The notes below the pieces were generated by a model. That model was not told the DNA's origin. It did not search any database and was given only the letters and a program-made list of their open reading frames with translations. Both the position numbers and the translations under genes were made by a program. DNA of 64,000 nucleotides from Tistrella mobilis KA081020-065 (lineage in GTDB: Bacteria; Pseudomonadota; Alphaproteobacteria; Tistrellales; Tistrellaceae): positions 1,533,501 to 1,597,500 of the forward strand of contig NC_017956.1 of the NCBI RefSeq assembly GCF_000264455.2. The letters run 5' to 3'. Below are positions 47,704-61,199 of this stretch, one piece after another (within the stretch, counting starts at the first letter, position 1; each line of letters begins with the position of its first letter).

Positions 47704-48723
47704 TCAGGCGCTCTGGAGGGTCCGGGACTCCCAGGCGGTGGCGACGAAGCCGATGCGGTCGCCGGTCGCCACCACCGGATCACGGCGGGCGGCGATGACC
47801 AGGACCGGCTCGGCGAAGGTCACGGTGTCGACGATATCGCCGAAAATGTCCGTGATCACGCCCAATGGCGATCCGGGCTGAAGAATGTCACCGGGTGTGC
47901 AGGCGGCCCGGAACAGACCACCGGTATCGGCCGTGACGTGGCGGCGCTTCAGAACCTTGCGCAGCATGCCGCCGGGGGCCGGGCGATCCTCGAACATCCC
48001 GATCTCGGCGGCGGTCCGGCGCAGACCCGCCGAGCCCTGTTCGACATAGGGCCATTCGATCCGGCTGCCGGCACCCAGCTCGACCATGAAGGCGGCTTTG
48101 CCAAGCGCCTGGAACTGGTAGTCGATGGCGCCTGAGATGTTGCCCGGCAGCTCGCCCGCGGCCTTCACCGTCGGCATCAGGCAGGCGACGCTGGGGTCAT
48201 AGAAGGAGAGGTGGCGCAGCAGCACATCCTCGGCCACCGGACCGTCGGGATGCAGCTTGTAGACGCCATAGGGCTTCGCCTCGAAATGGGCGGTGAGCGT
48301 GTGCAGGCTGACCAGACAGTCGCCTGCGCGCTCGATCTCGCGCCAGAGCCGGTCGGCGACCCGCTGGGTGGTCAGGCCGCCGGCGGCGCCGGGGAATTGC
48401 TGGTCGATGTCGAGCCCGTCCTGCGGCGCCGTCTTGGCCCGGGCATCGAAGGCGAGCGGATTGGCGGCCGGGATCACGATGCAGGCGCCGCGCATGGCGG
48501 CGAGGTCGAGATTGCGGACGAAATCGAGTGCCGCCAGCGTGCCGTTGACCTCGTCGCCATGGACGGTGGCGGTCACCCAGAGGGTGGGGCCGTCGGCCGC
48601 ACCACGGGCGGCGATATACGGGATGGAAATCTCGGCGCCGGTCGCCGTGGAACCGGCGACCAGGCGGCCCTGGCCGCGGCTCGCGGGGGCGAGCCGGGCG
48701 AGATGATCGGTGATGATTGTCAC
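47704..48723 (-). CDS. succinylglutamate desuccinylase/aspartoacylase family (M14-type) deacylase
   Basis: This 339-residue zinc enzyme has metal ligands His55 and Glu58 (TVHGDEVNG) and His141 (SLHTLTAHF), with Glu215 (FMVELGAG) as probable catalytic base. The family removes acyl groups from N-acyl amino acids; DoeB of ectoine breakdown is a relative, but no other ectoine genes are seen. The GTG at 48723 overlaps the TRAP permease stop by 4 nt, so it is coupled to import and likely hydrolyses the imported compound. Confidence 0.85.
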   Translation of the reverse strand: MTIITDHLARLAPASRGQGRLVAGSTATGAEISIPYIAARGAADGPTLWVTATVHGDEVNGTLAALDFVRNLDLAAMRGACIVIPAANPLAFDARAKTAPQDGLDIDQQFPGAAGGLTTQRVADRLWREIERAGDCLVSLHTLTAHFEAKPYGVYKLHPDGPVAEDVLLRHLSFYDPSVACLMPTVKAAGELPGNISGAIDYQFQALGKAAFMVELGAGSRIEWPYVEQGSAGLRRTAAEIGMFEDRPAPGGMLRKVLKRRHVTADTGGLFRAACTPGDILQPGSPLGVITDIFGDIVDTVTFAEPVLVIAARRDPVVATGDRIGFVATAWESRTLQSA

Positions 48724-50693
48724 GAGGCGGGGTCTCTTCCGTGGGGGGAGGCGGTTCCGGCCGTGGCGGCCCCGGCCTTGCGGCGAAGGTCCAGGGTGTA
48801 GCACAGCCAGAACAGGGCGAAGCTGCCGGCCAGGATGGCGATCTGATAGATCAGGCCGACATGTTCGGAGGGCAGCAGAAGCAGCGCGAAGAGCAGGGCC
48901 GCCGCACGGGTCGCGCGCGACAGCGGCACCTTCAGCCAGCCGATCGAGGCGACCGAGATGGCGAAGATCGCGATCGCCATCAGCAGGCAGACATAGGCGA
49001 TCTCGCCGATCGTGCCCTGGGCCAGGAATTCGGGGTGGTAGATGAAGACATAGGGGATCGCGAAGACCGGCAGGCCCAGGCGTACCGCATGCATGCTGGT
49101 CCGCCAGGGATCGGCATTGCCGACCGCGGCGGCGGCGAAGGAGGCGACGGCCAAGGGCGGTGTGATGTTCGAGATCACGGCATAGTAGAAGATGAACATA
49201 TGCACCGCGATCGGCGCCACGCCGAAATCGACGAAGGCCGGGGCCAGGATCACGGCCAGCACCACATAGACGGCACTGGTCGGCATGCCCATGCCCATGA
49301 TCACCGCGACCATCATGGTGAGCGCCAGCGCGAGCGGCAGGATGCCGTGCGAGGTTTCGATGATGATCGTGGCCATGCGATAGCCGAGGCCGGTCATCGA
49401 CACCACGCCGACGATGATGCCGCCCACCGCACAGGCGGCGGTGATCGGCGCGATCAGCTTGGGCGCGTTGATCAGGGCGTCGGCGAAGATCCGGGCGAGA
49501 CCGCGCACGCCCTTGCGGCGATCGAAGATCACGATCATCGCCGCCAGCATGCCGATGGCCCAGACGCCGGCCCGCGCCGGGGTATAGCCCGAGACCAGGG
49601 CCCAGACCATGAAGATCACCGGGACCAGCAGATAGCCGCGCGAGCGCAGCACCGGCCAGACCTTCGGCATTTCCTCGTCTTCAGCGGGCCGCAGGTTCAG
49701 CCGCCGGGCTTCCAGATCGACCATCACGAAGACGGTGGCGAAATAGAAGATCGCCGGCAGGATCGCGGCGATCATGATGTCGCCATAGGGGACGCCCAGC
49801 GTCTCCATCATGATGAAGGCGGCAGCGCCCATGATCGGCGGCATGATCTGCCCGCCCGTGGACGCCACGGCTTCAACGCCGCCCGCGAATGAGCCCGAGA
49901 AGCCGCCGCGTTTCATGGCCGGGATGGTGAAGCTGCCCGTGGTCACCACATTGGCGGTGGAGCTGCCCGAAAGCATGGAGAAAAAGGCGGAAGAGACGAC
50001 AGCGGTCTTGGCCGGCCCGCCGACGATCCGGCCGGTGAGGGCGCGCGCCAGATCGGTGAAGAACTCGCCGGCGCCCGAGGCGACCAGCAGCGAGCCGAAC
50101 AGCACGAACAGGAAGATGTAGCTGGCGGTCACCGCCAGCGGCACCGTCCAGATGCCGTCGACCGTGAGGTACATCTGCTCGATGACCCGGTCGATGGAAT
50201 AGCCCCGGTGCCAGAACGGATAGGGCAGGCTGTCGCCGACCTGGGTATAGACCAGGAAGACGAGGGTGATCACGACCATCGGCCAGCCGATGCTGCGCCG
50301 GACGACATCCAGCACCACCAGCAGCAGCAGGGCGCCCAGCACGCGCTCGGCGGTCAGCAGCCGGGTCATGTATTCCATGCGCTCGGAAATGCGGGTCTGG
50401 TCGAAGACCAGGAACAGGGTCGAGGCCAGCACCACGATCAGCATCGCCGTATCCCAGGCGAGGCCGATCCAGCGTTTTGCCCCGGTCTCCGGCGCCCGCA
50501 TCGAGGCGGCGGTCAGCAGCAGCACCGCGAAGGCCAGCGCCAGATGGATGGGACGATAGGCCAGCGCCGGCGCTTCGCCGAAGATGCCCGCATGGATGTG
50601 GAAGAGCGACATGCCGATCGCGACGGCGTGGGCGGCATGGCGCAGCACGGTGCGAAGGCCTGAGCCCTCGCCCGCTGCGGAGACGGTGGTCAT
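48720..50693 (-). CDS. TRAP transporter fused permease (4TM-12TM type)
   Basis: The 657-residue protein combines the small Q-like part (first four hydrophobic helices, about 1-180) and the large M-like permease in one chain, the form that pairs with TAXI receptors. Segments such as GSSTANVVTTGSFTIPAMKRGG and GGQIMPPIMGAAAFIMMETL are typical. It follows the TAXI gene after a 79-bp gap with a hairpin and is coupled to the deacylase gene. Confidence 0.92.
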   Translation of the reverse strand: MTTVSAAGEGSGLRTVLRHAAHAVAIGMSLFHIHAGIFGEAPALAYRPIHLALAFAVLLLTAASMRAPETGAKRWIGLAWDTAMLIVVLASTLFLVFDQTRISERMEYMTRLLTAERVLGALLLLVVLDVVRRSIGWPMVVITLVFLVYTQVGDSLPYPFWHRGYSIDRVIEQMYLTVDGIWTVPLAVTASYIFLFVLFGSLLVASGAGEFFTDLARALTGRIVGGPAKTAVVSSAFFSMLSGSSTANVVTTGSFTIPAMKRGGFSGSFAGGVEAVASTGGQIMPPIMGAAAFIMMETLGVPYGDIMIAAILPAIFYFATVFVMVDLEARRLNLRPAEDEEMPKVWPVLRSRGYLLVPVIFMVWALVSGYTPARAGVWAIGMLAAMIVIFDRRKGVRGLARIFADALINAPKLIAPITAACAVGGIIVGVVSMTGLGYRMATIIIETSHGILPLALALTMMVAVIMGMGMPTSAVYVVLAVILAPAFVDFGVAPIAVHMFIFYYAVISNITPPLAVASFAAAAVGNADPWRTSMHAVRLGLPVFAIPYVFIYHPEFLAQGTIGEIAYVCLLMAIAIFAISVASIGWLKVPLSRATRAAALLFALLLLPSEHVGLIYQIAILAGSFALFWLCYTLDLRRKAGAATAGTASPHGRDPAS

Positions 50694-50727
50694 CCTGGAT
50701 CTTCTTCCGGACGAGGATGCGTCGGAC

Positions 50728-50766
50728 GGGCGCGGGCGGGGCCGGGGTCACCGGGCGCCCGCGCCC
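50728..50766 (-). terminator. intra-operon hairpin between TAXI receptor and TRAP permease genes
   Basis: An 11-bp perfect GC stem (50728-50738 with 50756-50766) encloses a smaller CCGG/CCGG stem. It lies just downstream of the TAXI stop on the minus strand, with no clear T-run. It is placed to raise receptor over permease expression by attenuation or 3' protection. Confidence 0.55.
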
Positions 50767-50772
50767 TGCGCC

Positions 50773-51741
50773 TCACTTCGCGAGGACGCCGGCTTCCTGA
50801 TAGGCGCGCAGCGCACCCGGATGGATGGTGATACCGGGCATGGCGGCCATGTCGGCCGGCTCCAGCCGGGCCAGGGCGGCATGGGCGCCCTGCAGACGCT
50901 TGAACTTTTCGATCAGCGTCTTCGTCAGCCAATAGGCCTCGTCCTCGGGCATCTCGTCCGAGGCGATCATCATCATCGAGGTGCCGACGGTCGGGATCGC
51001 GGCATCCTGGCCCGGATAGGTGCCGGCCGGGATTTCGGCGCGGGCATAACCGGGGTTCAGCTCCTGAAGCTTTGCCGCCAGCGCGTCATCGATGGTCAGA
51101 AAGCGAATGTCGGAGGTGCTGGCAAGCTCGGTGAAAAAGCTGGCCGGATAGTTCGCGACCGAGACCATACCGACCGAATGATGGTCCTTGATCTGGTCGG
51201 TCTGGAAGCTGAGACCGCCGCGGACGATGTCGATCTTCGACGCATCGGTGCCGGTGGCGGCGAGCAGGTCGTCGAAGATCAGTGCGGTGGCCTGGCCCAC
51301 CGGCTGCGAGGCGAAGCGCTTGCCGGCAAGGTCGCCGATCGACTGGACGCCCGAATCGCCCGCGACCGCGATATGGGCCAGCATCGAGGTGAACGAGGCG
51401 ATGCCGCGGACATTGGTGATCGGCTCCTGGAAGGGCGGCTTGCCGGCGGCGGCGACGCTGGGCACGATGCTCATGGTCAGGCCCAGCTCTCCCGTCCCGC
51501 GTGAGACGCCGACGACGTTGGAGGTGCCGCCGCCCATTTCGGCATTGGCGCGCACGCCCTCGTCACCCAGGATGGCGGCGACGCCTGCGGCGGTGGCATA
51601 GAACGAGCTGCCGGTCGGGCCGGCGAGGATGGTGAGCGATTTCGGCTTGCCCTCGTCGGCGGCGAAGCCGGGGGCTGCGTGCAGCATCAGGGCCGCGACG
51701 GCGGCGGCGCCGAGCATGCGGCGATCGATGGTCCGGAACAT
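50773..51741 (-). CDS. TAXI-family TRAP transporter solute receptor
   Basis: This 322-residue protein starts with a signal peptide (MLGAAAVAALMLHAAPGFA, cleavage near GFA-ADE) and shows the TAXI core LTILAGPTGSSFYATAAGVA, where the Gly-Ser-rich loop binds the ligand, and GGGTSNVVGVSRGTGELG. It feeds the fused permease downstream. Its ligand is unknown; TAXI receptors often take glutamate-like or other carboxylated compounds. The iclR gene lies 137 bp upstream on the same strand. Confidence 0.92.
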   Translation of the reverse strand: MFRTIDRRMLGAAAVAALMLHAAPGFAADEGKPKSLTILAGPTGSSFYATAAGVAAILGDEGVRANAEMGGGTSNVVGVSRGTGELGLTMSIVPSVAAAGKPPFQEPITNVRGIASFTSMLAHIAVAGDSGVQSIGDLAGKRFASQPVGQATALIFDDLLAATGTDASKIDIVRGGLSFQTDQIKDHHSVGMVSVANYPASFFTELASTSDIRFLTIDDALAAKLQELNPGYARAEIPAGTYPGQDAAIPTVGTSMMMIASDEMPEDEAYWLTKTLIEKFKRLQGAHAALARLEPADMAAMPGITIHPGALRAYQEAGVLAK

Positions 51742-51801
51742 GTAGCCTCACGTGTTTCTTGATGGGCTGCGTCTTGCGCGGTGGCAGTGCCCGCGGGGGC
51801 G

Positions 51802-51816
51802 TGGCACCGGCTTTGC
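51802..51816 (+). promoter_or_regulatory. sigma-54 consensus-like element on the plus strand
   Basis: TGGCACCGGCTTTGC has GG and GC 10 nt apart and the full TGGCAC-N5-TTGC pattern. Transcription from it would run rightward, antisense to iclR and toward the DMT permease about 1 kb away. No enhancer-binding protein is adjacent. It may be a chance match; see findings. Confidence 0.35.
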
Positions 51817-51878
51817 GCGGCGGGTCTCCATCCGGCGGCGGATCTCTGGCGGATCCGTCCGGCCGGGATGTGTCGATG

Positions 51879-52646
51879 TCAGGCGGTGCCGAAGGGATAG
51901 GTTTCGGCACCCAGGCGGAAGGACAGGCTGCGCGCGGCAGCCTGCAGATCCGCCACATGGGCCTCGGCCGCGTCGGGCTCGTAGCCTTGAAGCGGCATGA
52001 TGAAGCTGAGGGCGGCACGGATGTGTTCGTGCTCGCCGAAGACCGGAACCGCGATCGCCACCAGGCCGGGCGCGCTCTCGCCCGCGGTGACGGCGGCGCC
52101 GGCGGCGCGAACCTCGGCCAGATGGTCGGCAAGGCCGGCCGGATCGGTGATGGTCTTGGGCGTGATCTGGGGCAGGCCGTGGGCCGCGATCAGCCGGTCG
52201 AGCACCTCGGGTCCATCGAAGGCGGTCAGGATCTTGCCGGCCGCGGTGGCGTGGAACGGCACCGACATGCCCACGCGCCAGCGGCTGTCGACGAAGAACG
52301 GCCCTTCCACCGCCAGCAGATGGAAGACGGTGTCGCCCTCGCGCACGCTCAACACCGCGGAATGGCCGCAGCGATCGACCAGCTCCCGCATGATCGGCAG
52401 CGCCTGACGGGTGAGGACATGCGTATGGGCATAGGCGACGCCGACCAGAAAGCTCATCGGCCCGACCCGGTATTTGCGGGTGACCGGATCCTGATCCAGG
52501 AAACCCTGCTCGCGGAAGGTGGCCAGCACCTTCGAGACCTGGCTTTTGGCAAGCCCGGTCCGCTCGCAGATGTCGGTGATGCCGAGCGGCTGACGTGTGG
52601 TGGAGAAGGCGCCGTAGATGGCGAGGGCCGAGGTCAAAGACTTCAT
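51879..52646 (-). CDS. IclR-family transcriptional regulator
   Basis: This 255-residue regulator has an N-terminal winged helix (about 8-60, GITDICERTGLAKSQVSKVLATFREQG) and an IclR effector domain with the Cys-less pocket around GHSAVLSVREGDTVFHLLAVEG. The ATG at 52646 has AGGA about 9 nt upstream. Inverted GTTTCC boxes overlap its ribosome-binding region, a strong hint of autoregulation. It probably controls the TAXI-TRAP operon beginning 137 bp downstream. Confidence 0.9.
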   Translation of the reverse strand: MKSLTSALAIYGAFSTTRQPLGITDICERTGLAKSQVSKVLATFREQGFLDQDPVTRKYRVGPMSFLVGVAYAHTHVLTRQALPIMRELVDRCGHSAVLSVREGDTVFHLLAVEGPFFVDSRWRVGMSVPFHATAAGKILTAFDGPEVLDRLIAAHGLPQITPKTITDPAGLADHLAEVRAAGAAVTAGESAPGLVAIAVPVFGEHEHIRAALSFIMPLQGYEPDAAEAHVADLQAAARSLSFRLGAETYPFGTA

Positions 52647-52652
52647 CAAGAA

Positions 52653-53794: not shown

Positions 53795-54301
53795 TCAGGC
53801 GCTGGCGCGTTCGGGGACGGCAAGCCCCAGCCAGTCGCGGTAGAAGGTCGGGATATCCGGCTCGAAATCATGCAGCACCGGATACCAGGGCGTCGGTGCC
53901 TCGACGTCCAGCAGCACGCCGCAGTCCGGGCAGCAGTATTCGCGATAGACCTGCCAGGCCGGATCGGGCGCCATCAGCTTCGGGTAGACCTCGTTCAGCG
54001 CCGCTTCGGTGTCACGGACGCAGACCAGCGCTTCCAGCTTCCAGTTCCGGTCATGATCGCAGAAGACATGGCCGCAGCTGCACTTGATCTTCCAGTGCTT
54101 CGCTGCATCCTGAACGATGAACAGGTGCGGCCCCAGCGGCAGCAGGATCCGGTCCGGCCAGGCGGCGCGCGACTGCAGCACCTCGATATATTTCACGAAC
54201 CGGTCGGCATCCTTGGGCATGGAGAGCATGCGATGGACGACATCCGGATCCAGGCGGCCGTCGACCAGATCGGCAACCTGTTTCGGGGTATAGCTCGACA
54301 T
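53795..54301 (-). CDS. acxC: acetone carboxylase gamma subunit
   Basis: This 168-residue subunit matches the Xanthobacter gamma subunit in length and zinc-site layout. Cys74 and Cys76 (KCSCGHVFC, with Cys81) and Cys123/124/127 (CCPDCG) are the probable zinc ligands. Acetone carboxylase converts acetone, bicarbonate and ATP to acetoacetate, AMP and phosphate as an alpha2beta2gamma2 complex in the cytoplasm. Third gene of acxABC, 101 bp after acxB. Confidence 0.93.
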   Translation of the reverse strand: MSSYTPKQVADLVDGRLDPDVVHRMLSMPKDADRFVKYIEVLQSRAAWPDRILLPLGPHLFIVQDAAKHWKIKCSCGHVFCDHDRNWKLEALVCVRDTEAALNEVYPKLMAPDPAWQVYREYCCPDCGVLLDVEAPTPWYPVLHDFEPDIPTFYRDWLGLAVPERASA

Positions 54302-54401: not shown

Positions 54402-56720
54402 TCACTCCTCCACCAGACGGATCGTGGTCACGTCGGGCAGGGCCGAGAGGTCCATGCGGTGCTTCGAACCGAAGGAGGGGATGCCCAGTTCGCTCTCCTC
54501 GATCGTCCAGTCGGCCGGCAGATCCCAAAAGCTGCGGAACTGGTCGAGGAACTTGCCCGAAAGCCCGAAGCTGGTGGCGTACATGTGCCGGACCGGCAGC
54601 GACGCCTCCTTGGCCAGGATCCGCTCCCGCTCCTCCGCCATCCACGCGCGGGTCGGGCGGCTGCGGGCGATGCGCTCGCGGCGGATCTCGGCGCGGCGCC
54701 GGGCGGTCGCCTCGCGGTCGACCTGCCAGCGGCCGCCGGCGACCTTCGTCGCCACGGCGCCATGGACCGAGGCGGCATAGCGGGGCAGCAGGGCGCGCTC
54801 GTTCAGATCCTGCTCGATCGCCGCCGGGTCGCGGTCCAGCGGATCGCCGAAGCCCGGCCCGCCGCGGATGTAGTTCAGGTAGAGATCGTGGTTCTCGAAT
54901 ACCGCCTCGGTGGTCATCGCCTGATGGTCGCGTTTGACCCGGGCGCTGCGATCGATGCGGGTTTCGTATTCCGGATGATCGGGATCGAGATCTGCGCCGA
55001 AGGGCAGGGGCTCGCCCGCGGCGATCCGGCGGGCGATGCCGGTGTCATGGGCCTCGAAACGGTAGCCGGTGGCGGAGGGATAGCCGCCCATCAGCCCCCA
55101 GTCGCTGACCATGTAGCCATTGCCCATGAAATACATGGTCCAGTCTTCGGCCTTCCAGACCATGCGCAGGGTCTCGAAGCCGCAGCCGCCGCGGTATTTG
55201 CCATAGCCGCCCGAATTGGCCTTCACGTTGCGGCCCAGATAGATCAGGGGCTCGGCCAGCTCCCAGATCTCCATGTCGCCCATATCGCCTTCGGGGTTCC
55301 AGATCGCGGCGGCATGGTTCAGCCCGTCGCGGATCGCCGAGGCGCCGGTGCCGGTGGCCGCGGTCTCGAAACTGTTGACCGCATGCACCTCGCCGTCCTG
55401 GTTGATGCCGCCGCCCTGCAGCCAGTTGGAGGTGTTGCCGTTGCCGGCATTGACCTCTTCCAGATAGCCGCGGCCGTAATAGGCGGTCGACACGCCGCGC
55501 CAGAGGGCGCTCCAGCTCGACACCAGGAAATGCCAGGCATAGGCATGGCCGGTGCGCCGGTCGTCGGGGTTCATCCAGGTGCCCTTGGGCAGCCGGAATT
55601 TCGTGCCGTAATAGGCGCCGTCATTGATCCGCTCGGTCGGCACCAGGGTCTGGGTCATCATCACCCATATGCCGCTGGTGAAGGCGACCTGATTGGCATT
55701 GTAGGTGTGCCAGCCCCAGCGGCTCGCGCCCTCGAAATCGAGCCGCCACGAGGCATCGGCATTGATGGTCATCTCGACCGGCGCATGCATGATGCTGTCG
55801 ATCTTGGCGAAGGCCGAGGGGCAGCCGATGTCTTCATGCGCATAGGGCACGTCGACGAAGGCGACCTTGCGATAGGTACCGGGGATGGTCATCGCCTTCA
55901 CCCGGCTCTGCAGGCCGCGGCGGCCTTCCTCGATCACCTCGTAGGCGAAGCTCTCCCAGTGGTCGACGCCGTGTTCTTCCAGCACCTCTTCCACCAGATC
56001 GCGGATCATGTGGCAGCCGGCGATGCGGGTGCGCTCGTCCAGGATCCAGTATTTGGTGGTGCGCACCGAGCGCTGGCTTTCATGCAGCCAGTCGCGCAGG
56101 GGCACATCGTTGATGCCGGTCTTGCGGCAGGTGATCTGATAGCCGTCGCCGAAGCGCTGGATCTGGCCGGTGGACATGGAGCCGGGGCCGACCGATCCGG
56201 TGTCGATCACATGGGTGACGCCGCCGACCCAGCCGACCAGCTTGTCCTGCCAGAAGATCGGCACGATGGTCGCGATGTCGCAGGGGTGGACATTGCCGAT
56301 CGAGCAGTCGTTGTTGGTGAACATGTCACCGGGGGAAATGCCGGGATTGGTCTCCCAGCCATTCTCGATCATGTATTTGATCGCAGCCCCCATGGTGCCG
56401 ACATGGATGATGATGCCGGTGGAGGTCAGCACGCAGTCGCCGGCGGCGTTATAAAGGGTGAAGCACAGCTCGCCCTCCTGTTCGACGATCGGCGAGGCCG
56501 CGATCTTCTTGGCGGTCTCGCGGGCATGAACCAGGCCGCCGCGGAGCTTCGAGAACATCTTCTCATAGCCGATCGGGTCGGACTGCTTGAGCGCCAGGGT
56601 CTCGAGCCCGGCATAGTGGCCGGTCTTTGCCGTGAGATCGAGCACCCGGGCCCGGTTCTCCTTCAGGGTCAGGCCGCCGCGGACCAGGCCCTCGCGTCGT
56701 TCGGACGACATCACGTTCAT
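54402..56720 (-). CDS. acxB: acetone carboxylase alpha subunit (HyuB-like)
   Basis: This 772-residue hydantoinase-B-type subunit (Xanthobacter AcxB is of similar length) carries the metal centre and acetone carboxylation site. Family segments include VLTSTGIIIHVGTMGAAIKYM, FTNNDCSIGNVHPCDI and GGGINQDGEVHAVNSF. It needs the beta subunit, which makes the phosphorylated intermediates. Middle gene of the operon, 51 bp after acxA. Confidence 0.93.
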   Translation of the reverse strand: MNVMSSERREGLVRGGLTLKENRARVLDLTAKTGHYAGLETLALKQSDPIGYEKMFSKLRGGLVHARETAKKIAASPIVEQEGELCFTLYNAAGDCVLTSTGIIIHVGTMGAAIKYMIENGWETNPGISPGDMFTNNDCSIGNVHPCDIATIVPIFWQDKLVGWVGGVTHVIDTGSVGPGSMSTGQIQRFGDGYQITCRKTGINDVPLRDWLHESQRSVRTTKYWILDERTRIAGCHMIRDLVEEVLEEHGVDHWESFAYEVIEEGRRGLQSRVKAMTIPGTYRKVAFVDVPYAHEDIGCPSAFAKIDSIMHAPVEMTINADASWRLDFEGASRWGWHTYNANQVAFTSGIWVMMTQTLVPTERINDGAYYGTKFRLPKGTWMNPDDRRTGHAYAWHFLVSSWSALWRGVSTAYYGRGYLEEVNAGNGNTSNWLQGGGINQDGEVHAVNSFETAATGTGASAIRDGLNHAAAIWNPEGDMGDMEIWELAEPLIYLGRNVKANSGGYGKYRGGCGFETLRMVWKAEDWTMYFMGNGYMVSDWGLMGGYPSATGYRFEAHDTGIARRIAAGEPLPFGADLDPDHPEYETRIDRSARVKRDHQAMTTEAVFENHDLYLNYIRGGPGFGDPLDRDPAAIEQDLNERALLPRYAASVHGAVATKVAGGRWQVDREATARRRAEIRRERIARSRPTRAWMAEERERILAKEASLPVRHMYATSFGLSGKFLDQFRSFWDLPADWTIEESELGIPSFGSKHRMDLSALPDVTTIRLVEE

Positions 56721-56770: not shown

Positions 56771-58948
56771 TCAGCCGCGGCCGGTCTCGATCAGGTGGAA
56801 CAGCCGGTGGCCGTCGAGCCGGGTGGCGAAACCGCGGGGCAGCACGAAGGTCGTGGCCGGGCTTTCGATGATGGCGGGCCCCTCGATCCGGTTGCCGGCC
56901 TTCAGGTCTTCCATCCGCCAGATGGTCGCGTCTTCCCAGCGGCCGCTGCGATAGAAGCGGCGGGTGCCGAGGCGTGCGCTTTCGGGCGGCACCGGCCCGG
57001 CCTCGGGCTCTTCCGGCAGGACCGGCTTGGTGGTGGTGACCACGCCGCGCATGATCGCACCGGTGACGCTGAAGCCGAGTTCGGGCGAACGGGCGGCATC
57101 GGCATAGACCCGGGCATAGGTCTCATCGAATGCATCGACCAGCGCATCCCAATCCGCGGGCGTGGCGGCGCTGGTGATCGGCGAGATGATCTCCAGATCG
57201 TTGAGCTGCCCCAGATACTGCATGCGATAGCCCGGCCGGAGCATCACGTCTTCCGGCTTGAAGCCGTTGATCGCGAACTCTTCGATCACCCGGTCGGCCA
57301 GCTCCGCCCAGGCCTGTTGAAGCGTGGCGCAGGCGCGGGTCTTGGCCTCGTCGTCGGCGACGGCCGGGATCGCCACGTCGACGCTCTTGTCATAGCGGTA
57401 TTCGAAATCGGCAGTGGCACAGCCGAAAGCCGAGAAACCCGCCGCCCAGGCCGGAACGACCACATCCCGGAAGCCCAGCCCTTCGGTATAGCCATAGGTG
57501 TGCACCGGACCGGCGCCGCCATAGGAGAAGCACACGAAATCGCCCGGGCTGTAGCCCTTGGCGCTGATCGTCGCCCGGAGATAGTCGCGGAGCGACAGAT
57601 CGAGCAGTTCGATCACCCCGGCGGCTGCGGCTTCGACCGTCAGCCCCAGCGGTTCGGCAAGCTGGTGGCGGATCGCCTCATGCGCGCGGGCGACATCCAG
57701 CTTGACCGCCCCGCCCAGGAAGTTGTCGGGGTTGAGATAGCCCAGCACCACATGACAGTCCGAGACGGTGACCGTGTCGATGCCGCTCTCGGCCCAGCAC
57801 ACGCCCACCCGATAGCCGGCACTGTCGGGGCCGAGCTTGATCGCGCCGGTATGGGGGTCGAGCCGCACGAAACTGCCGGCGCCGGCGCCCACCGAGTCCA
57901 TCGCCACCAGCGGCAGCGACAGCACCAGACGGGCCATGTCGGGGTCGGAAGCGATGGCGAAATTGCCCTTGGTGATCAGGGCCATATCGAAGCTGGTGCC
58001 ACCGATGTCGGAACAGGCGATGTTGTCATAGCCCAGCATCTGGCCCAGGAAGCGCGCGCCGATCACCCCGCCGATCGGCCCCGAGACCAGGGTCCGGGCC
58101 AGTTCCTTGGCCTTCCAGCTGATCGTGCCGCCATGGCTGGCCATGACCCGCAGATCGAACCGGCCGCCGACCTCGCGCATCCGGTCGCTGATCTTCGTCA
58201 GTGTGCGGCGCGAGGGCTCCGCCGCATAGGCCTCCAGAATGGTGGTGTTGGTGCGGTGGCTTTCCTTGCGCACCGGGTAGTAGTCGACCGAGGCGAAGAC
58301 CGGCACATCCGCGCCCAGCTCGCGGGTGACCTCGATCGCGATGTCGCGGACGCGCCGCTCGTGGGTGCCGTTCTTGTAGGAATGCAGCAGGCTGATCACC
58401 AGCGCCTTCGCCCCCGCCGAGACCAGCTCGCGGACGGCGGTGCGGACCTCGTCTTCCCGCAGCGGGATGACCACCTGGCCCTGGCTGTCGATCCGCTCGG
58501 TCACACCGCGGGTCCGCTCGGGCGGCACCAGGGGCTGGTCGTAGCGGTGGGTGTTCAGGTGAATGCGGTCTTCGAAACCATAGCCCAGATAGCTCTGGAT
58601 CGCCCGGCCCATGCGGTGATGGTCTTCAAGCCCGCGATTGACGATCAGCCCGACCTCCAGCCCCTTGCGCTGAACCACGCGGTTCAGCATCGCGGTGCCG
58701 GAATAGACGCAGGTGACGAGTTCGTCATAGACCTCTTCCACCCCGCGCGACCATTGCTCCAGCGCGTCGGCGGAGCTTTCCATCACCGCGCGGGCCTCGT
58801 CCTCGGGATTGCTCTGCGCCTTGCCGACCACGAAATGGCCGTCGGCGCGCACGAAGAAGGTGTCGGTCATCGTGCCGCCGGCATCGATGCCCATCACCTG
58901 CACCGGAACCGGGGTCCGGGCGTCCTCCGTCGTCTGTGCGCGTGTCAT
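56771..58948 (-). CDS. acxA: acetone carboxylase beta subunit (HyuA-like)
   Basis: This 725-residue hydantoinase-A-type subunit starts with the ATP-binding VMGIDAGGTMTDTFF (about 18-32) and includes CSDIGGTSFDMAL and SYGGAGPVHTYGY. It activates acetone and bicarbonate by ATP-dependent phosphorylation for the alpha subunit. The ATG at 58948 has GGGAGGA 4-5 nt upstream and gives family length; the frame open to 59911 upstream is non-coding. A consensus sigma-54 promoter lies 62 bp before the start, and the activator gene is divergent. Confidence 0.94.
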   Translation of the reverse strand: MTRAQTTEDARTPVPVQVMGIDAGGTMTDTFFVRADGHFVVGKAQSNPEDEARAVMESSADALEQWSRGVEEVYDELVTCVYSGTAMLNRVVQRKGLEVGLIVNRGLEDHHRMGRAIQSYLGYGFEDRIHLNTHRYDQPLVPPERTRGVTERIDSQGQVVIPLREDEVRTAVRELVSAGAKALVISLLHSYKNGTHERRVRDIAIEVTRELGADVPVFASVDYYPVRKESHRTNTTILEAYAAEPSRRTLTKISDRMREVGGRFDLRVMASHGGTISWKAKELARTLVSGPIGGVIGARFLGQMLGYDNIACSDIGGTSFDMALITKGNFAIASDPDMARLVLSLPLVAMDSVGAGAGSFVRLDPHTGAIKLGPDSAGYRVGVCWAESGIDTVTVSDCHVVLGYLNPDNFLGGAVKLDVARAHEAIRHQLAEPLGLTVEAAAAGVIELLDLSLRDYLRATISAKGYSPGDFVCFSYGGAGPVHTYGYTEGLGFRDVVVPAWAAGFSAFGCATADFEYRYDKSVDVAIPAVADDEAKTRACATLQQAWAELADRVIEEFAINGFKPEDVMLRPGYRMQYLGQLNDLEIISPITSAATPADWDALVDAFDETYARVYADAARSPELGFSVTGAIMRGVVTTTKPVLPEEPEAGPVPPESARLGTRRFYRSGRWEDATIWRMEDLKAGNRIEGPAIIESPATTFVLPRGFATRLDGHRLFHLIETGRG

Positions 58949-59009
58949 GTGTCCTCCCAGGATCTGTCGTTGGCGGGGGCGATCGGCGTCGCCCTCGGAA
59001 GACATGAAT

Positions 59010-59025
59010 GGCAAGCGGCGTGCCA
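59010..59025 (-). promoter_or_regulatory. sigma-54 (-24/-12) promoter of acxABC
   Basis: On the minus strand TGGCACGCCGCTTGCC matches the sigma-54 consensus (GG-N10-GC, TGGCAC-N5-TTGC) exactly. The expected start point near 59000 gives a leader of about 50 nt before the acxA ATG at 58948. The divergent gene codes for a sigma-54 activator, making function very likely. Confidence 0.88.
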
Positions 59026-59115
59026 GACGGGCGAAATCTTCGCAAAGCCTTATGGCATATCGGATTGCGGATTCTGTTGCGGTGCCGTTTCGCGGCCGCA
59101 CCGGTCGCGTGCGGC

Positions 59116-59152
59116 CGTCCGGATGTCGGTCGGGCGTCCGGAAACCGGACGC
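59116..59152. promoter_or_regulatory. upstream activator site for the acx sigma-54 regulator
   Basis: A perfect 19-bp palindrome GCGTCCGG-AAA-CCGGACGC (59134-59152) lies about 110 bp upstream of the -24 element, with an extra CGTCCGGA half-site at 59116-59123. Position and symmetry fit an enhancer-binding-protein site. It is also about 110 bp before the activator's own ATG, allowing autoregulation. Confidence 0.65.
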
Positions 59153-59264
59153 CTCTCGCGCGGATGGGGGCGTCCTGCGGTATCGAGGCGGGTGGACAGG
59201 TCGTGGGAGAGTGGTGCAAGCTGCTGTCCCAACGATAAAAATCCGTGTTGGGGAGGACGCCGTC

Positions 59265-61199
59265 ATGCAAGGGGAAACCCAACCCCCGGGCGATCCGCCG
59301 TCCGTGCCGTCGGTTTTCGACGCCTGGGAGACGCTGGTCACCGGTGATGCCCGCGCCGTCGCCGGCGTGCGGGATCTGGTCGAAAACAGCTGGCGCCGCT
59401 GCCTGAAGACCGGCGTCGACCCCGCCGGACGCGAGGCGCCGCTGGTCTGTTCCGAAGACCGGCTGGGCCTGCGCCGGGAGCGTGCCGAGGATCTGCGCGG
59501 CGCCGCCGCCCCGGTGATGGGCGATGCCCGCGCCTTCCTGGCCGAGACCGGCACCATGATGGTGCTGGCCGATCCCGACGGGGTGGTGCTGGATGTCGAA
59601 GGCGATGGCCGCACCCGCGACCGGGGCGAGGTGATCCGCCTGATGCCGGGCGCCGACTGGACCGAGACCGCAAGCGGCACCAATGCGATCGGCACGGCGC
59701 TGGCCCTGGGGGCGCCCGTGCAGATCCATGCGGTGGAGCATTTCTGCGCCGGCATCAAGCAATGGACCTGTTCGGCGGCGGTGATCCGCGATCCGGTGGA
59801 CCGCACGGCGCTTGGCGTACTGGACATCTCAGGGCTTTCGGGCGCCCATAACGCCCATTGCCTGGCGCTGGCGGTAACGGCGGCGGGGCGGATCGAGGGG
59901 CGGATCGCCAAGCGCGATCTGAACCTGCGCGCCCGGCTGATCGAGGCGGTGTTGAGCGAGGAGCGCTGGCCGATGGACCGGCTGGTGGTTTTCGATCATC
60001 GCGGCCGGCCGGTGCGGATCGGCGATCGCGCCCGGCGGCTGCTGAAGGAGATGGCGCTGGATCCGGCACGGACCGGCACCGGCGGCGCGGCGCTGCCCGA
60101 CTGGCTGAAGATTGAAGCCGCCGAGCCGGTTTTCGATGCTGCGCGCCGGATCGGGGCGGTCTGCGTGGTGCCGCAGGGCCGACCGCATTTGCCCGGCGGG
60201 GCGCGGGCGCGCGATCTGACCCCGCCCCCGATCTGCGAGCGGCCGGCCGACCCCTTCGACGAGGTGATCGGCGACAGCCCGCCGATGATCAAGGCCAAGG
60301 CCACCGCCCGGCGCTTGGCCGGGGTGGAGGTGCCGGTTCTGCTGACCGGCCCTACGGGCACCGGCAAGGAGGTCTTCGCCCGGGCGATCCATCGGGCGAG
60401 TGCGATGGGGCAGGGCGCGTTCGTCGCGGTCAATTGCGGCGCGCTGGCCCGCGATCTGCTGGCGACGGAGCTGTTCGGCTATGCCGAGGGCGCCTTCACC
60501 GGCGCGCGCAAGGGCGGCATGGCCGGCAAGTTCGAGGCGGCCCATGACGGCACGCTGTTCCTGGACGAGATCGGCGAGATGCCGGCCGAGCTGCAGGCCC
60601 ATCTGCTGCGCGTGCTGGAGCAGGGGGCGGTGGTGCGGGTGGGGGAGGCGCATGAGCGGCCAGTCCGCGTGCGGCTGATCGCCGCCACCCATCGCGACCT
60701 GCCGGCCGAGGTCGCGGCCGGACGCTTCCGCGCCGATCTCTATTTCCGGATCGCGGTGACGGCCATCACCCTGCCGCCGCTGGCCGAACGCGGCCCCGAC
60801 ATCGCCCGGCTGGCCTGTCATTTCGCCGCGTCGGCCGCCCGGCGCCACGGGCTGGTCCGCCATCCGCCCGCGGACGAGGCGCTGGCCAGGCTCGCCACCC
60901 ATGACTGGCCCGGCAATGTCCGCGAGTTGCGCAATGTGATCGAACAGGCGACCATCCTGACCCTCGCCGACCGGATCGAGGCCGCCGATCTGCCGGCCAC
61001 GATCGGGGCCGGCCATGTCCTGCGGCCGCAGCCGGCAGAGACGGCGGTCAGCCTGGACGAGGCCGAGGTTCAGGCGATCCTGGCCGCGGCGACCGAAACC
61101 GGCTGGAACCTTGCCGCGACCGCCCGCCGGCTGGGCATCGCCAAGAGCACGCTTTACGAGAAGTTGCGCCGCCACGGCATCCGGCGGCCGGGCGGCTGA
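59265..61199 (+). CDS. acxR: sigma-54-dependent activator of acetone carboxylase (AcoR/AcxR family)
   Basis: This 644-residue regulator has an N-terminal GAF-type sensor (about 85-230, [19 protein letters not shown]), a central AAA+ domain (Walker [16 protein letters not shown] near 360, sigma-54 contact GAFTGA near 408, Walker [11 protein letters not shown]) and a C-terminal Fis-type HTH (about 600-640, [20 protein letters not shown]). It should activate acxABC with RNA polymerase-sigma54 when acetone or a related inducer is present. The ATG at 59265 has GGGGAGGA 7 nt upstream. Confidence 0.93.

Follow-up and report, generated by a model that had tools for sequence, protein, structure and literature searches.

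A paired AcxR operator predicted upstream of the sigma-54 promoter of the acetone carboxylase genes in Tistrella mobilis

Introduction

Which DNA does the activator AcxR bind when it switches on the acetone carboxylase genes acxABC? The question is raised by a 64,000-nucleotide stretch of Tistrella mobilis KA081020-065 (the window), in which acxR and acxABC diverge from a common intergenic region that carries a sigma-54 promoter and a long palindrome. The switch by RpoN and AcxR is itself already known, since both control acxABC in Xanthobacter autotrophicus Py2 (Sluis et al. 2002, as cited in PMC2244623). In Cupriavidus metallidurans CH34, a sigma-54 site is located in the acxR–acxA gap between the divergently ordered genes, and induction of acx on acetone or 2-propanol is given as a personal communication (PMC2864759). 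The window resembles both systems in its enzyme genes, activator type and sigma-54 control, and CH34 also in the site within the gap and the divergent gene order. An operator sequence for AcxR was not found in the literature searched, as far as the accessible portions of these sources extend, and may be mentioned in Sluis et al. 2002.

Results

The acx locus and its sigma-54 promoter

The three enzyme genes are encoded on the minus strand, comprising acxA for the beta subunit (56771–58948; hydantoinase A family), acxB for the alpha subunit (54402–56720; hydantoinase B family) and acxC for the gamma subunit (53795–54301; PF08882), all assigned by Pfam. NCBIfam returned only acetophenone carboxylase and caprolactamase models for the acx products, far under their cut-offs. 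Acetone carboxylase is nevertheless the correct name, because AcxA is 70–80% identical to AcxA from acx loci elsewhere. The divergent acxR (59265–61199, plus strand) encodes a protein of 644 amino acids with a GAF domain, a sigma-54 AAA+ domain whose GAFTGA loop is intact, and a Fis-type helix-turn-helix. RpoN is also encoded in the genome (PF00309, E 2.4e-16), which comprises 6.5 Mb in five contigs. On the 3' side of acxC and on the same strand, positions 48720–52649 encode an IclR-type regulator, a TAXI-type TRAP solute-binding protein and an apparent TRAP permease; these TRAP genes possibly tie uptake to the acetone locus.

The sigma-54 promoter of acxABC (TGGCACGCCGCTTGCC) is located at 59010–59025 on the minus strand, as the sequence-only reading had proposed. 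Read from 59025 to 59010, TGGCACG-CCGC-TTGC-C matches all 11 fixed bases of TGGCACGN4TTGC and departs from the consensus in its final base, C in place of W. This score was equalled in 0.07% of trials on one strand of the shuffled intergenic region. Transcription of acxA is predicted to start near 58999, which gives a leader of about 50 nt in which GGGAGGA stands ahead of the ATG. Furthermore, 80 of 82 loci, the window included, have a -24/-12 site scoring at least 13 in the 260 bp that precede acxA, as compared with 1.7% of shuffled sequences, which makes sigma-54 control a general feature of these loci. For a separate sigma-54 promoter facing acxR, no candidate surpassed the near-symmetrical reading of the acxA site itself.

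Two abutting dyads lie upstream of the promoter

Upstream of the promoter, GCGTCCGGAAACCGGACGC at 59134–59152 forms an exact 19-bp palindrome between acxA and the divergent activator gene, again at the position first proposed, and the symmetry remains perfect out to 21 bp (59133–59153). Its arms, GCGTCCGG-AAA-CCGGACGC, score 23.6 bits, and it lies 112 bp upstream of acxR, with its centre 118 bp upstream of the -24 T. What had been taken as an extra half-site beside it turned out to be a whole second dyad of 19 bp, CCGTCCGGATGTCGGTCGG at 59115–59133, which is degenerate (CCGTCCGG-ATG-TCGGTCGG), scores 16.7 bits with a per-position chance below 3e-6, is centred 99 bp upstream of the -24 T and abuts the first dyad exactly. 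A second species of the genus (L006) shares both dyads without a single difference: an unbroken identical run of about 49 bases spans them, and the adjoining spacer has many changes. A palindrome alone is not decisive in GC-rich DNA; it becomes so through its conservation, and the dyad at 59134–59152 is very probably the docking site of AcxR, a prediction made from sequence comparison.

The dyad is conserved before acxA

Seventy-five dereplicated stretches upstream of the -24 element were searched for a 19-bp palindrome by expectation maximisation, starting from seeds unrelated to the window palindrome. The blind search converged on VCGTCCGGAWTCCGGACGB with a log-likelihood of 534.6, as compared with 13–17 in shuffles. 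With the motif matrix fitted on the same loci that it scored, the best dyad per locus reaches a median of 19.2 bits (75 loci), and 84% of the 75 loci have a dyad above 14 bits, a level exceeded in none of 548 coding segments and in 0.07% of shuffles; this is the conservation near acxR orthologues on which the sequence-only reading had staked its palindrome. The exception to shared fitting is a hold-out motif trained with no alphaproteobacterial loci, under which the window site ranked first at 23.0 bits and none of 2000 shuffles scored as high. In addition, the 48 loci without acxR beside the acxA promoter yield the same motif, and the dyad therefore belongs to the control of acxA rather than to the acxR leader.

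Within the Alphaproteobacteria, where acx was found in 4 of 387 genomes in a class search with a strict cut-off, the dyads of L011, L015 and L062 are weak. In the Acidocella locus (L009), no dyad was found upstream of acxA despite a K-helix AcxR; its AcxA is 80% identical to that of the window, and its acxR lies several kb downstream in the opposite orientation. In two loci (L074 and L051), the upstream DNA amounted to only about 210 bp, and both stand outside the judgement on the dyad. The acx-like loci of Shinella and Sinorhizobium, with about 39% AcxA identity, carry a different helix-turn-helix regulator divergent from acxA (L107:3127-3906 and L108:3134-3913), and the acx dyad was not seen in either. 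In Paraburkholderia (L017, L018 and L021), each acx cluster encodes two AcxR-like activators, which flank acxABC on its upstream and downstream sides.

Spacing and helical phasing

Across the loci, the dyad centres lie 85–148 bp upstream of the -24 element. Most loci contain two dyads, spaced mostly by 19, 24 or 30 bp, and the window falls in the 19-bp class. The centres are phased at about 10.5–10.75 bp relative to the promoter (R 0.40; nominal p 4e-8, with kinship of the sequences uncorrected). Between operator and promoter, 30 of the 75 loci contain a sequence that agrees with the IHF consensus at 8 or more of its 9 positions, and most of these sites have their centre around -36 or -24 when counted from the -24 T; in the last 75 bp, matches occur at a rate of 40% versus 3.6% in shuffles. 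In the window, the best match between operator and promoter is 7 of 9, with no clear IHF site. The region had been described as a complete sigma-54 control region; its promoter, dyads and intact AcxR bear this out, and the word goes a little too far in that the IHF site of many relatives, which at 30 of 75 loci does not strictly define such operons, is not recognisable here.

The dyad varies with the activator

Four Geobacteraceae loci (L046, L047, L058 and L061) encode a distant activator with 33–34% identity and a recognition helix of SRATFY or SRTTFY. The dyad was not found in any of the four, three of which contain a different inverted repeat of the GAGAC/GTCTC type; sigma-54-like sites are present in three of the four. 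In addition, the outermost arm base is T in 3 of 86 half-sites with the IAKSTLY helix, as compared with 21 of 38 where the helix is of the AR or SR class (Fisher p 1e-10), a link that represents few independent changes because the K-helix proteins form one clade of the AcxR tree, which was built with the quick version rather than the careful search.

The GAFTGA loop is absent from AcxR in seven plasmid loci (L099, L100, L102, L103, L104, L106 and L111) from Paracoccus, Cereibacter, Rhodobacter, Rhodovulum and Martelella; six of these genes lie at L099:2041-3867, L100:2000-3829, L102:2086-3843, L103:2054-3847, L104:2262-3845 and L106:1997-3838. By alignment, the glycines and lysine of the P-loop are retained in these proteins, whose members L099, L102, L103 and L104 have lost the Walker B acidic pair as well. 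The seven proteins form one clade with full support. No -24/-12 site was found before acxA in these seven loci, and their GAFTGA-bearing relatives L098, L101 and L105 keep theirs. A related dyad is kept nonetheless, clean in L100, L106 and L111 (the TTGTCCGAAAACCGGACAA type) and degenerate in L099 and L102–L104. Since the dyad persists where both GAFTGA and the -24/-12 site are gone, it follows AcxR and not sigma-54.

Alternative readings of the dyads

The dyads could instead bind another regulator encoded elsewhere, with AcxR using other DNA. In eight loci (L040, L041, L049, L050, L064, L080, L084 and L087), the dyad is present and the sampled DNA contains no acxR, which lends this reading some weight, but acxR may sit beyond the sampled stretch in each of them. 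Moreover, a separate regulator would leave it unaccounted for that the dyad is absent where the activator is of the Geobacteraceae type, that its outermost base shifts with the helix class of AcxR, and that it survives where AcxR has lost GAFTGA, and we regard this possibility as improbable.

A role in RNA is less probable still. The palindrome, 112 bp upstream of acxR, would fall within the acxR leader if transcription of the gene began above it, and could then act as a hairpin or terminator rather than as a protein site. No T-run follows it, however, and the dyad keeps its helix-phased distance from the acxA promoter even in loci that have acxR downstream, at a great distance or on the same strand, so this explanation appears very improbable. 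The least probable of all is a chance feature of GC-rich intergenic DNA. Counts of palindromes fit this explanation as far as they go, in that loose matches are as frequent genome-wide as in a reversed control, and the sole other exact consensus match in the genome lies within a prophage-like gene. Such counts are insufficient by themselves, and chance is ruled out by conservation: motif discovery, the hold-out prediction, the footprint in the sister species and the dyads before acxA in other genomes all speak against it. The same kind of scan offered little for a wider AcxR regulon in this genome, with 69 consensus matches at two or fewer mismatches versus 44 in the reversed control, a mild excess on which we do not build, and a look for open frames at the four matches ranking next after the prophage-like gene gave no clear picture.

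Discussion

The preferred reading, on the sequence comparisons above, is that the divergent acxR/acxABC region is a control region in which an AcxR oligomer on the paired dyads drives the sigma-54 promoter by DNA looping, and we hold it to be highly probable. AcxR, with its GAF sensor, AAA+ ATPase and Fis-type helix-turn-helix, would bind as an oligomer to the two adjoining dyads at 59115–59152, whose predicted consensus is VCGTYCGGAWTYCGRACGB and whose centres precede the predicted start point of acxA by about 125 and 144 bp. The signal would be acetone or a related compound. Bound AcxR may then loop onto the sigma-54 RNA polymerase waiting at 59010–59025, and its hydrolysis of ATP would lead to transcription of acxABC.

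In Thauera butanivorans, BmoR of the PBMO system is an alcohol-responsive enhancer-binding protein with an inverted-repeat UAS and a sigma-54 promoter, for which IHF or an intrinsic bend has been proposed (PMC8899819). The BmoR UAS lies 193 bp upstream (PMC8899819), whereas the acx operator is nearer and mostly paired. As regards the Xanthobacter and CH34 systems, two abutting conserved dyads are defined in the window, whereas an activator site is not described in the accessible portions of those accounts. To the known switch, our analysis adds a predicted operator sequence, the pairing and phasing of its dyads, and an offshoot without sigma-54 features.

The offshoot has a parallel in the NtrC proteins of Rhodobacter capsulatus and Caulobacter, which are enhancer-binding proteins that lack GAFTGA and act at sigma-70 promoters (PMC10274813). 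The GAFTGA-less AcxR of the Rhodobacterales and Martelella plasmid loci resembles them in this respect, whereas the AcxR of the window has an intact GAFTGA. We think it reasonably likely that the dyad is the general operator of AcxR and that the partner polymerase has changed in evolution. The Rhodobacterales/Martelella plasmid clade would have dropped GAFTGA and the -24/-12 site and kept a TTGTCCG-AAA-CGGACAA-type dyad at most about 150 bp from the acxA start, turning a sigma-54 enhancer into an ordinary activator site for the housekeeping polymerase.

The analysis provides a specific predicted operator for AcxR, a protein for which no binding site was found in the literature searched. As a marker, this operator may help to find AcxR targets, and the natural variants of recognition helix and operator are material for tests of specificity. 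Furthermore, the plasmid loci present an apparent natural switch from sigma-54 to sigma-70 inside one regulator family, with the operator kept.
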